From assembly GCA_040880525.1 (NCBI GenBank), contig JBBDIG010000014.1:62001-126000 (forward strand): DNA of 64,000 bases, given 5' to 3'. Positions 39,314-47,431 of this stretch are shown here, one piece after another; position 1 is the first letter of the stretch; the number at the start of each line of letters is the position of its first letter. Source of the stretch: Bacteroidia bacterium (GTDB lineage Bacteria > Bacteroidota > Bacteroidia > CAILMK01 > JBBDIG01). The notes beneath the pieces are model-generated. The model did not search any database and was not told the DNA's origin. It saw only the letters and a list, made by a program, of their open reading frames with translations. The translations under genes were made by a program, and so were the position numbers.

Positions 39314-42300
39314 ATGGACAACAACAATAAGCAGTACTGGAAAGGGTTTGACGAATTTTATCAGGAGAATAAATTTGAGGCAAAGAAGCATGATGAATTT
39401 GCCGAAAAGCTTCCTGTCAGGCCGGAAGACTTTAATCTGCAATCAAGCAGGCGTGATTTTCTGAAATTTTTCGGATTTAGTCTTTCCGCAGCGGCATTAA
39501 CTGCTGCCTGCACAAAGACTCCCGTCAAAAAGGCTATTCCTTATGTTATTAAGCCTGTTGACATCGAGCCGGGGATGCCCAATTATTATGCTTCTACCTG
39601 CCATGCCTGCAGCGCTGGATGTTCAATCCTGGTCAAAACCCGCGAAGGGCGTCCTATTAAAATAGAACCTAATCCGGAATCGGAACGGACTGGCTCCGGC
39701 ACCTGCGCTTTAGGGCAGGGAACAGTACTCAACCTGTATGATGCAGGCCGTCTGACAGGTCCTGTGGCCAATGGCGCAGACACGACCTGGGAAGATATTG
39801 ACCCACGCGTGGTAGCTGACCTTCAAAAGGCCTCATCAAGAGGCAAAGTGGTGCTGCTCTCGCAAACCGTAACCAGTCCCACAACGCAAAAAATAATTAA
39901 CAGCTTCGTGGAAGCGGTGCCTAATGCCGAGCACAGAAATTACGACCACGTTTCAGCCTATGGCCTTCTTAAAGCTCATCAGGATGCATTTGGGAAATTC
40001 GCTTTGCCGCGCTATCGTTTTAACCGGGCCAAAACCATTGTCAGTTTTAATGCTGATTTTCTGGGTACCTGGATCTCGCCCGTAGAGTATACTAAAGGAT
40101 ATTCTGAAGCCCGTGCAGTAGATGAGAAAAAACGCATGGCATATCACATCCAGTTTGAAAGCAATCTTTCACTTTCCGGAAGTAATGCGGATTTGCGAAT
40201 GCCTATGCGTCCTTCGCAGGAAGGCGCTGCTGTTCTTTCATTGCTCAATAAAATAGGCGGGGGCAGCACCTACGGCTCAGGTGATTTTGAATTACCCGGA
40301 AATGCAATCGCCTCGGCCGCCAATGCTTTAAAGGCTACAGCCGGGGAATCCATCGTAATATCAGGATCGAATGATCCCGGAATTCAGGCGATGGTGCTGG
40401 AAATAAACAGGAGGCTGGGCAACTATGGCAATACGCTGGACATGGATAATCCATCATACCAGAAGCAGGGAAATGATGAAGACATGATCCGCCTGGTGCG
40501 AGAAATGAATGCAGGACAAGTGGCCGCGATCATTTTCTACGGCAGCAACCCGGCATATTCATACCCTCAGGCAACAAAATTTAAAGAAGCTCTTGCCAAG
40601 GTGCCTGTGCGTGTGAGTTTTGCTGACAAAATGGACGAGACAGCCAAGCTTTGCACATACGTTTGCCCGGACGATAATTACCTGGAGAAATGGAATGACA
40701 GTGAGCCTGTAAGAGGCATGTATACCATGACGCAGCCTACCATCACCCGCATCTTCAATACACGCGCTGCCCAAGAAACATTATTAACCTGGATGGGCAA
40801 CCGGCAGGAATACCATGACGTACTGAAAGCGAATTGGCAACAAAATATATATACAGGAACCGGGGGTGAGGATTTCGAAAGTTTTTGGCGCAAGGTGATC
40901 CACGATGGCGTATACCAAAGTGAACGCAGCCTGCACGACAGGGCAATTTCCACATCAGGACTGGTTGGCTCACTCGCTGCCTTTGCAACAGCCGCGATGA
41001 GCGCTGTAACGGATACAGCCGGTGCGGCCATGAATGCCATTTCAGATACAACCGGTATGTCTGCTGCGCTGCCTGGCATGGCGGCAATTTCTGATACCTC
41101 TGCCACTGCGACTCAGCAAGGCGAGACCACAACCGTTGAGGATACGGCTCAAAGTATTAATACAAGAGATCTTTCTTCAGTAGCAGCAATGGCAGAGAAA
41201 GACCGCCAGGCTGCGGAAGGACAAATGGAATTATTTCTTTACCAGACAGTAGCTCTTCAGGACGGAGAATCAGCAGGAAATCCCTGGCTTCAGGAGTTGC
41301 CTGACCCGATCAGCCGGATCTGCTGGGATAATTACGTTTGTGTTTCTAAAAGAAATGCGGATGAAAAAGGATGGAGCGATGGCAAAGTGATAAAGGTTTC
41401 TGTAGGAGACCGCAGCGTTAAATTGCCGGTATATATTCAGCCAGGCCAGCCTTATAACACCATCGCCATTGCAGTTGGATATGGCCATGATATGGCGGAA
41501 GCGTCAGGCAAGATCGCCAACTTTGTGGGTAAAAACGCTTTTCCACTGGCATCGCTGAAGAATGGAGCAGTATCCTTTCGGGGAATTGCTACAGTGGAAG
41601 ATACTCCTGATGTAATAAATCTGGCACAGACGCAGACTCACCATCATGTGGAGGGACGCGATCTTGTGAGAGAAACTTCCCTGGGAACGTATATGGCCGA
41701 TCCTTCTTCTATCAAGAAGCAGGACGTACACATGGTTTCACTCTATGATCCGTACAAATTTCCCGGCCATCACTGGGGCATTGCCATTGACCTCAACGCA
41801 TGCACCGGTTGTGGTTCCTGCGTGGTGGCCTGCACTGCAGAGAACAATGTTCCCGTTGTGGGCAAGGCTGAGGTTCTGATGCGCAGGGAAATGCACTGGA
41901 TCAGGATTGACCGCTATTTCAGCATAGAGGAAGATGGAAAGTATCTTAATAAGGAAGATGCGGTTAATGATATTGAGAACAGCGATAGCTTTGAGAACGT
42001 GAAGGTGAATTTTCAACCGCTCATGTGTCAGCATTGCGACAACGCTCCCTGCGAGAACGTTTGTCCGGTAGCGGCCATCAGCCACAGTTCAGAAGGTATC
42101 AATCAGCAGGTTTATAATCGCTGCGTAGGAACCCGCTATTGCCAGAACAACTGCCCTTATAAAGTAAGGAGATTCAACTGGTTCAGCTATTATGAGAATG
42201 AGGAATTCGACTATAACATGAATTCGGATCTTGGCCGCATGGTACTGAATCCGGATGTGGTAGTGCGGGCACGCGGGGTGATGGAAAAATGCTCAATGTG

Positions 42301-45336: not shown

Positions 45337-46713
45337 ATGGAACTGCATAACGTTAAGGAAAAATTTATATTCACCGGCAGGTTAAAGGCAATTACCCTGG
45401 GAGTTACGTTACTGGGACTTATCCTCACCGTAATTGGTATGCTGGTAAATCCTGATGGCCGTCATGGGCATGGCGAATCCGTTACCCATGGCGTAGAACT
45501 ATCAGAGCAACAAAACGTGCATGAAGAGGAGGGAATTGATTATGCCACCGATCTTAAAGATCATCCTACTAAGGTGGTTGCAGACCATGATGCCGCCTCT
45601 GGTCATCATGAAAATATCGGGGCCAAGCGTTTTTGGGCTAACCTCCTTTTGAGCAGTACATTTTGGTTTCTCATTTCATTGTGCGGTACCTTTTTTATTG
45701 CCTTTAATTACCTGGCAAATGCAGGCTGGGCGGTTGTGCTAAATAGAATAGCCGAAGCAGTTGGAGTATATTTACCCATCTCTGCGGTTGCGCTGCTCAT
45801 CATTATGGCTTTTGGCAGCCACTCCATTTATCACTGGGCGCACGAAGCTGTCTACGAAGTGGGAAATCCCGAATACGACCCGCTGCTGGTCGGTAAACGG
45901 GAGTTCCTGAACGAAGGATTCCTGATGACCGGTTTCGTAATTTTTGCCGGTCTGATGATTCTCTTTACTTATTTATTCAGAAGAAACTCTCTTCTGGAGG
46001 ATGTAAACGGGGGACTTAAATATTATGACCGTTCTTTAAAATTTGCCGTATTCTTCCTGGTCGCTTTTGGCTTGGGAATTTCCTTCTTTGGTTTCGGTTT
46101 CCTTATGTCTACTAACCCGCACTGGTATAGCACCATCTATGGCGTGTATGTATTTGCGGGCATGTTCGTAGGTGGAATGACCGTAATTACCATGATCGCC
46201 ATTTTGCTGAAGAATGCAGGATTTTTGGCGGAGGTCAGAACCGAACATATCCATGATATGGGCAAGTTCATGTTTGCGTTCTCAATATTCTGGACCTATA
46301 TCTGGGTTTCGCAATTCCTGCTTATCTGGTATGGTAATATTCCTGAAGAAACCATCTATTATGACATGCGGTGGGCGCCTAACTGGAAAACTCTTTTCTG
46401 GTTAAATCTCATAATAAATTTCACTGTACCGCTACTGCTTCTTATGAGTCGGCACACCAAAAGGAATTTCAAGTTTCTGTTCGCCATTGGCATTGTAATC
46501 CTCATCGGACGTTTTATGGATATCTATCTGCTCATTATGCCTGATACCGTAGGGCTGGATGCCAGCACTTTTGGCTTCATTGAAATAGGATGCTGGCTGT
46601 TCTTCGGAGGCATCTTCGCATTCACTACGGCATGGGCGCTGAGCCGTGCCAATCTTATTCCGATGCACCATCCATACCTGGGCGAGAGTTTGCACCACGA
46701 GATTCCGGTATAG
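45337..46713 (+). CDS. actF: Alternative complex III subunit ActF (quinol-binding-like membrane protein)
   Basis: 458 residues with ten membrane helices, homologous to ActC. The sequence LNRIAEAVGVYLPISAVALL and SHSIYHWAHEAVYEVGNPEY, then KRNFKFLFAIGIVILIGRFM and MDIYLLIMPDTVG are characteristic of ActF in Bacteroidota. A histidine-rich loop (about 55-105) lies between helices 1 and 2. It is the last act gene; its final 59 bp overlap, on the other strand, the 3' end of the next gene. No cytochrome oxidase gene follows, unlike in many act operons. Confidence 0.95.
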   Translation: MELHNVKEKFIFTGRLKAITLGVTLLGLILTVIGMLVNPDGRHGHGESVTHGVELSEQQNVHEEEGIDYATDLKDHPTKVVADHDAASGHHENIGAKRFWANLLLSSTFWFLISLCGTFFIAFNYLANAGWAVVLNRIAEAVGVYLPISAVALLIIMAFGSHSIYHWAHEAVYEVGNPEYDPLLVGKREFLNEGFLMTGFVIFAGLMILFTYLFRRNSLLEDVNGGLKYYDRSLKFAVFFLVAFGLGISFFGFGFLMSTNPHWYSTIYGVYVFAGMFVGGMTVITMIAILLKNAGFLAEVRTEHIHDMGKFMFAFSIFWTYIWVSQFLLIWYGNIPEETIYYDMRWAPNWKTLFWLNLIINFTVPLLLLMSRHTKRNFKFLFAIGIVILIGRFMDIYLLIMPDTVGLDASTFGFIEIGCWLFFGGIFAFTTAWALSRANLIPMHHPYLGESLHHEIPV

Positions 46714-47431
46714 CAGATTTTTTAAAAACATACAGTTTCACCGGGCGCAATGCTTCGGGTGGAACCTTCAGCCACGGAGGAACATTGCCGGGCGTTCCCA
46801 TAAAACCATACTCCCTGGTCAATTGAAAATTACTGTTTTCAAAAATCTTCAGTAGATCCGAACGGCTATAATTCAGACAGCCTACCTTTTTATCGTAGTA
46901 AGTCTTTGCAGCGATTGGCTCATAAATGAATAATTCCGCCCCCGGTTTCATGGTTTCCCAAATGTCAGCAAGCATTGCATCAGGATGGGAAAAATGGTGA
47001 AACGTCTGGCGGATTATGATCTTATCAAAAACATAACGTGGCAAATTTGTTTTTTTCTTCCTGCCCTTAACCAATACTAGTTCATTGGTATTGGGAGTTG
47101 TCCGAAGTTCTGAATATTTGTCGCTTACAACATTTAATGTTCTGAGAGAATAACCATTTATTTCCTGGGCATAAATTGTAAGGCTGTCATAATTTATCAT
47201 CAATACGCCTTCCAGCCAACCCGTGGCAAAACCAATATCTGCAATTACCTCATTCGGCTGTAAATCATATACTTTGAATTCCTGCTCCATTGACTTAAGC
47301 ATAGAATCAGCATGGAGAATGAAACCGCTGTTATTCACAATGGACTCTTTCTTTTTCGCCAACCGGGTGCTGCTACATGATAAATTAATGATTAAAAGCA
47401 GCCCTAAGAATAAGTAAAATAAAAATTTCAT
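46655..47431 (-). CDS. Lipoprotein with a class I methyltransferase-like domain
   Basis: 258 residues. The N-terminus MKFLFYLFLGLLLIINLSCS is a lipoprotein signal with Cys 19, followed by a basic linker (STRLAKKKESIVNN). From about residue 58 the sequence is a class I SAM methyltransferase-like fold: motif I as VIADIGFATGWLEG (62-75), then DKIIIRQTFHHFSHPDAMLA (motif IV-like) and LADIWETMKPGAELFIYEPI (motif VI-like). Motif I has D-x-G-x-A-T-G, close to the consensus. A periplasmic methyltransferase fold is unexpected since SAM is cytoplasmic. The 3' end overlaps actF by 59 bp in convergent orientation. Similar Bacteroidota lipoproteins exist to my knowledge, but the role is unknown. Confidence 0.75.
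   Translation of the reverse strand: MKFLFYLFLGLLLIINLSCSSTRLAKKKESIVNNSGFILHADSMLKSMEQEFKVYDLQPNEVIADIGFATGWLEGVLMINYDSLTIYAQEINGYSLRTLNVVSDKYSELRTTPNTNELVLVKGRKKKTNLPRYVFDKIIIRQTFHHFSHPDAMLADIWETMKPGAELFIYEPIAAKTYYDKKVGCLNYSRSDLLKIFENSNFQLTREYGFMGTPGNVPPWLKVPPEALRPVKLYVFKKSAIPESRGANSRPGMDGASE

Follow-up and report, generated by a model that had tools for sequence, protein, structure and literature searches.

The window analyzed here is a 64,000-nucleotide stretch of a Bacteroidia genome, and its minus strand carries, at positions 46655 through 47431, an ATG-initiated open reading frame for a methyltransferase-like protein with a predicted export signal (258 residues plus stop; herein the query). 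The gene is convergent, tail to tail, with the plus-strand respiratory genes at 39314 through 46713, which from their translations we take to encode alternative complex III; it shares its final 59 bases with the 3′ end of the plus-strand neighbor at 45337 through 46713. The initial annotation had placed it at the end of the respiratory operon; because it lies on the opposite strand and converges on those genes, it stands outside that operon and an operon link is ruled out. It is co-directional with the minus-strand carbohydrate genes upstream (47519 through 54162). These are three tightly ordered enzyme genes, beginning 87 bases upstream of the query and presumably encoding, by translation, an amylomaltase, a maltooligosyltrehalose synthase, and a GH57-type protein. 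The four genes could share a common transcript; a tie between the query and the carbohydrate enzymes is unsupported, as the neighbors differ in relatives. Inspection by eye of 16 genome stretches and one further locus (L032) revealed no conserved neighbor around the family genes, so nothing in the surroundings points to a substrate. Scans around the gene gave no clear excess of promoters (5 versus a shuffle mean of 2.8) and no excess of terminators (1 versus a shuffle mean of 1.0).

The part of the gene that runs antisense to the end of the neighboring gene (46655 through 46714, minus strand) encodes residues 240 through 258 and the stop. Relatives end near residue 240 of the query numbering, and model confidence is low from about residue 241. 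Being both unconserved and of low confidence, these last 19 residues resemble the product of read-through, such as would arise had the reading frame lost its original stop.

The export signal of the query is MKFLFYLFLGLLLIINLSC. Residues 1 through 18 (47378 through 47431, minus strand) form a signal peptide in which a short positive start is followed by a hydrophobic stretch at approximately residues 3 through 17; the same kind of signal is present in all 31 distinct members of the first set of relatives described below. Cys19 (47375 through 47377) is the candidate lipidation site, within a loose lipobox (N-L-S-C). The initial annotation had described a type II signal directly followed by a methyltransferase domain with motif I DIGFATGW; signal, fold, and motif stand, while the lipobox is less regular than that description implied, with Asn at position −3. 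Among 31 lipoprotein-like proteins in a 420-kb sample of the same genome, Asn occupies this position in two, one of which is the query itself. L003, L007, and L008, the nearest relatives, likewise have a Cys at this place, and lipidation of the query at Cys19 is probable from its sequence. The 12 residues after Cys19 have a net charge of +3, near the top of the range found in those 31 proteins (−6 to +4), which is unfavorable for translocating that flank. Overall, the query is likely to be exposed in the periplasm.

The domain behind the signal has the hallmarks of a class I methyltransferase. The query scores above the curated Pfam cut-off for Methyltransf_11 (PF08241; 23.5 versus 21.2 bits). 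An AlphaFold2 (AF2) model built from 14 sequences (mean pLDDT 85.7) contains the full alternating class I methyltransferase domain in residues 41 through 238, bearing out the fold named in the initial annotation; by AF2 and VIA-align it is the seven-strand, Rossmann-like class I fold. The best VIA-align match is 3dh0 (Z = 19.2, rmsd 2.4, 166 residues aligned), 1vl5 has Z = 18.9, and all 1,000 chains compared have Z of at least 8. The model and these scores together indicate that the methyltransferase domain is complete.

Conservation in the predicted pocket was counted in an alignment of 22 members from the subfamily to which the query belongs. Motif I (IADIGFATGW; residues 63 through 72; 47216 through 47245, minus strand), which from sequence and alignment forms the glycine loop of the SAM pocket, has the acid-x-G-x-x-x-G pattern in the query (D65, G67, and G71); acid 65 and G67 are kept in 22/22 members and G71 in 18/22. 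Strand 2 ends in Glu90 (47162 through 47164), at the position where class I methyltransferases have the acid that binds ribose; this position is acidic in every one of the 22. The segment from Gly123 to Asp136 (47024 through 47065), running from the end of strand 3 to the start of strand 4, keeps G123 in 22/22 and D136 in 20/22, and in the FHHF motif (residues 144 through 147; 46991 through 47002) H145 is again present in all 22; it is absent from two ankyrin-type members found later (L099 and L100). We take this residue set to be the signature of an adenosyl-binding site. Because acid 65, G67, acid 90, and H145 are retained throughout the 22, lost adenosyl binding appears unlikely, and the suggestion in the initial annotation that activity has been lost and another ligand bound is correspondingly weakened.

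To see how far the export signal extends beyond the query, we applied one simple hydrophobicity rule, allowing ATG, GTG, or TTG starts and using no trained predictor, to the query's relatives and to other methyltransferases. By this rule an export signal is readable in 36/36 distinct members gathered (31/31 in the first set plus five later matches to the mature domain), four of which (L006, L008, L017, and L034) need a GTG or TTG start. The PF08241 methyltransferases of the same genomes that served as controls look cytoplasmic, unlike the family: 2/28 have anything like an export signal (30 loci less two in which the motif was not located). The signals themselves are of several types: approximately 19 of the 36 are lipobox-like, with Cys, 14 are SPI with Gln (L034 counted here by its non-ATG start), and 3 are SPI-like without Gln. 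In Bacteroidetes, most SPI substrates have Gln directly after the cleavage site (PMC5837995). The initial annotation had named absence of the lipobox from most homologs as a sign of a normal cytoplasmic enzyme; about half of the relatives do lack it, but these have another export signal in its place.

The profile used in the search (A1) included signal regions; its matches other than the query begin at profile positions 41 through 52, past the signal. A search with the mature domain alone (residues 50 through 240) gave matches at E 1e-9 in 18 of 395 genomes from the class, and every relative found in this way carries an export signal; as the search sequence lacked a signal, the signal did not select those matches. 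A tree of the catalytic domain (61 rows) parts 39 exported proteins from 22 controls by one branch with support of 100/98, a split to which the sampling contributes, since similarity was the criterion for assembling the family and the controls came from the top PF08241 matches. The 39 comprise the 36 members plus three proteins encoded on plasmids of Geminocystis, Delftia, and Methylosinus. Taken together, the contrast between 36/36 and 2/28, the mature-domain search, and the tree argue against a wrong start, chance, or accidental anchoring. Judged from these sequences, the conclusion holds that export would be a property of the whole family, beyond the query alone. The puzzle raised in the initial annotation, that a methyltransferase fold is exported to a compartment not known to contain SAM, is thereby supported and reaches wider than was claimed.

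The family is patchy close to the query and broad at a distance. Among 11 other genomes of the order there is one clear relative (E 2e-49) and three weak ones. A contig scan of genomes with the single query protein gave no match, and a scan with three sequences gave four loci. Exported members occur in at least Bacteroidota, Cyanobacteriota, and Pseudomonadota. Neither the query nor a TPR-type relative had a match in the plasmid collection; exported relatives do lie on plasmids of Geminocystis, Delftia, Methylosinus, and Bradyrhizobium, and the NCBI annotation of plasmid members reads only “class I SAM-dependent methyltransferase.” On the Methylosinus plasmid pMSC49c (L124, 3749 through 4477), the exported methyltransferase-like gene lies between feoB/FeoC-like genes on one side and permease and cytochrome c genes on the other. 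With 86 plasmid records matched, five matches below the top five consist of four short proteins that lack a signal (Halopiger, Paenibacillus, Geobacillus, and Haloarcula) and one, from Bradyrhizobium, that carries an export signal; all five are outside the tree. From this mixture, the exported members make up a sizable group, alongside which there are relatives that are cytoplasmic. The Bradyrhizobium protein (L129, 68 through 1336) has 423 residues and, besides its export signal and methyltransferase domain, a long N-terminal part.

Some members are also extended at the C terminus. TPR repeats follow the catalytic domain in the two exported relatives that were scanned (L009, the same gene as in L048, and L012, the same gene as in L041); by eye, L011, L013, and L016 resemble these, and their lengths are similar. 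Five exported proteins (L004, L005, L006, L099, and L100) have, by eye, ankyrin-like repeats after the methyltransferase domain and lack the loop cysteine described next.

Cys19 and Cys185 are the only cysteines of the query. Cys185 (46877 through 46879, minus strand) lies in the loop that joins strand 5 to the following helix. When the query is aligned with an annotated arsenite methyltransferase, ArsM, this residue coincides with the ArsM cysteine of that loop. Counting from the motif I acid, 18/22 members have a Cys between +115 and +122, as does one of four further rows, giving 19/26; of the seven without it, five are ankyrin-type by eye, and L015 and L095 have a Cys approximately ten residues earlier. 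Controls have a loop Cys in 4/22 cases (22 of 30 loci, eight having been dropped because the motif was not located), and three of these four are ArsM. On this sequence evidence, a thiol or metalloid substrate would be a fair lead.

The reading we favor, to which we give an even chance, is that the query is an envelope-side, SAM- or SAH-binding methyltransferase-like protein, most likely methylating, from an old exported family. The query would be Sec-exported and probably lipid-anchored on the periplasmic side of the envelope, where its class I domain would fold and still bind an adenosyl ligand (SAM or SAH); the signal, the fold, and the conservation of pocket signature and export are seen in sequence and model, and lipidation, topology, and SAM binding are what we infer. 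The predicted substrate class is an envelope-side small molecule or protein, which the query would most likely methylate. It would be one member of an unnamed exported family spanning Bacteroidota and beyond, whose export signal is old and has been stably kept. Methyl transfer by the family would depend on the supply of a donor in the periplasm, where SAM is not known to occur. Besides the location of SAM, the atypical lipobox, the net +3 flank, the patchy distribution, the absence of G71 from 4/22 members, and that of H145 from L099 and L100 count against this reading.

Its chief rival, which we hold to be clearly less probable though still a serious contender, is that the family is exported and non-catalytic, the fold binding SAH, methylthioadenosine, or another nucleoside, or acting as a scaffold, with the TPR and ankyrin-type fusions as effector parts. 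An envelope without a known SAM supply is what this explanation would expect; the C-terminal repeats (TPR in the two relatives scanned, ankyrin-like by eye in five) and the losses of G71 and H145 are also in its favor. Matches to Anamorsin_N, a methyltransferase-like domain that is not known to bind SAM, in 5/14 members point the same way. Against it stand the four pocket positions that are constant in all 22 aligned members despite low overall identity, a degree of conservation beyond the needs of a scaffold.

A more specific form of catalysis is more doubtful still: the family may consist of active periplasmic SAM-dependent methyltransferases in which the ArsM-like loop Cys and the invariant His position a thiol, sulfide, or metalloid in the active site, to be capped by methylation outside the cytoplasm. 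If this were true, Bacteroidota and other bacteria would have to supply their envelope with a pool of SAM.

The remaining explanations relocate the protein or deny it a function. The initial annotation had raised the possibility that the signal retains the protein in the inner membrane; in its sharpest form, the hydrophobic segment is left uncleaved and the positively charged RLAKKK cluster behind it holds the domain on the side of the membrane that faces the cytoplasm and its SAM. The charge balance across the segment (net +3 over the 12 positions that follow Cys19 versus one Lys and the amino terminus before the segment) and the weak lipobox of the query would suit such an anchor. It is nonetheless improbable: all 36 members have export signals, approximately 17 of them SPI-type and 14 of these with the Gln expected at the SPI site in Bacteroidetes, and a signal that changes type while export stays speaks against retention on the cytoplasmic side. 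The Cys is moreover kept in the closest relatives, and one lipoprotein-like protein of the same genome tolerates a flank of +4. That the gene is decaying or recently acquired and has no function in this organism is very unlikely; it would agree with the patchy distribution within the order and with a tail that runs into the neighboring gene, but the frame is open and the pocket intact. Least credible of all is a wrong start, with a normal cytoplasmic enzyme beginning at the in-frame Met44, as N34 and F37, which are invariant in the three closest sequences, precede this next Met and a signal is readable in every relative.

Fold and sequence family are ordinary; what sets these proteins apart is the combination of stable export with an intact pocket. 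In the part of the open-licence literature covered, we found no description of this combination across one methyltransferase family, a weak negative. To our knowledge, class I methyltransferases are counted as cytoplasmic, since SAM is made there. With export kept across several phyla together with an intact SAM pocket, periplasmic SAM becomes a direct experimental question; if there is no SAM in the periplasm, the family would show the fold put to a new use, one that involves a different ligand.

Among known systems, Methyltransf_11-type class I enzymes (3dh0, 1vl5, and YcgJ, 1xxl) resemble the query in fold and in the order of its elements, and have in common with it motif I, the acid that closes strand 2, and the LP..FD and H..F regions. 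The query falls far below the UbiE/MenG cut-off (NF001240, 11.3 versus 378). ArsM belongs to the same superfamily, and three ArsM of these genomes have the loop Cys at +121. The query was compared with the three presumed arsenic-binding Cys positions of ArsM and has only that of the strand 5 loop, lacking the N-terminal Cys pair and the Cys of the strand 4 loop; it also differs from ArsM in being exported. It scores 10.3 against NF041537, whose cut-off is 510, and NF008823, which the three control ArsM pass, is not among its matches. The cut-offs and the missing cysteines rule out its identity as ArsM.

The predicted methyltransferases of COG4798, which carry signal peptides in Proteobacteria, are no more than a lead. 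PilD is a polytopic membrane protein of a different fold. As a prepilin peptidase and N-methyltransferase it methylates an envelope-bound substrate (PMC10450907), a feature like that proposed for the query. A further related set is an exported sister group (L022 through L028, L030, L031, and L096, and proteins on plasmids of Geminocystis, Delftia, and Comamonas), which is annotated merely as class I SAM-dependent methyltransferase. It shares with the query an export signal, a methyltransferase domain, and the same side of the tree, and differs in having its own N-terminal block (GIGKxYxGREIxxVMGxxxxxWLER), no loop Cys, and no visible TPR or ankyrin parts.
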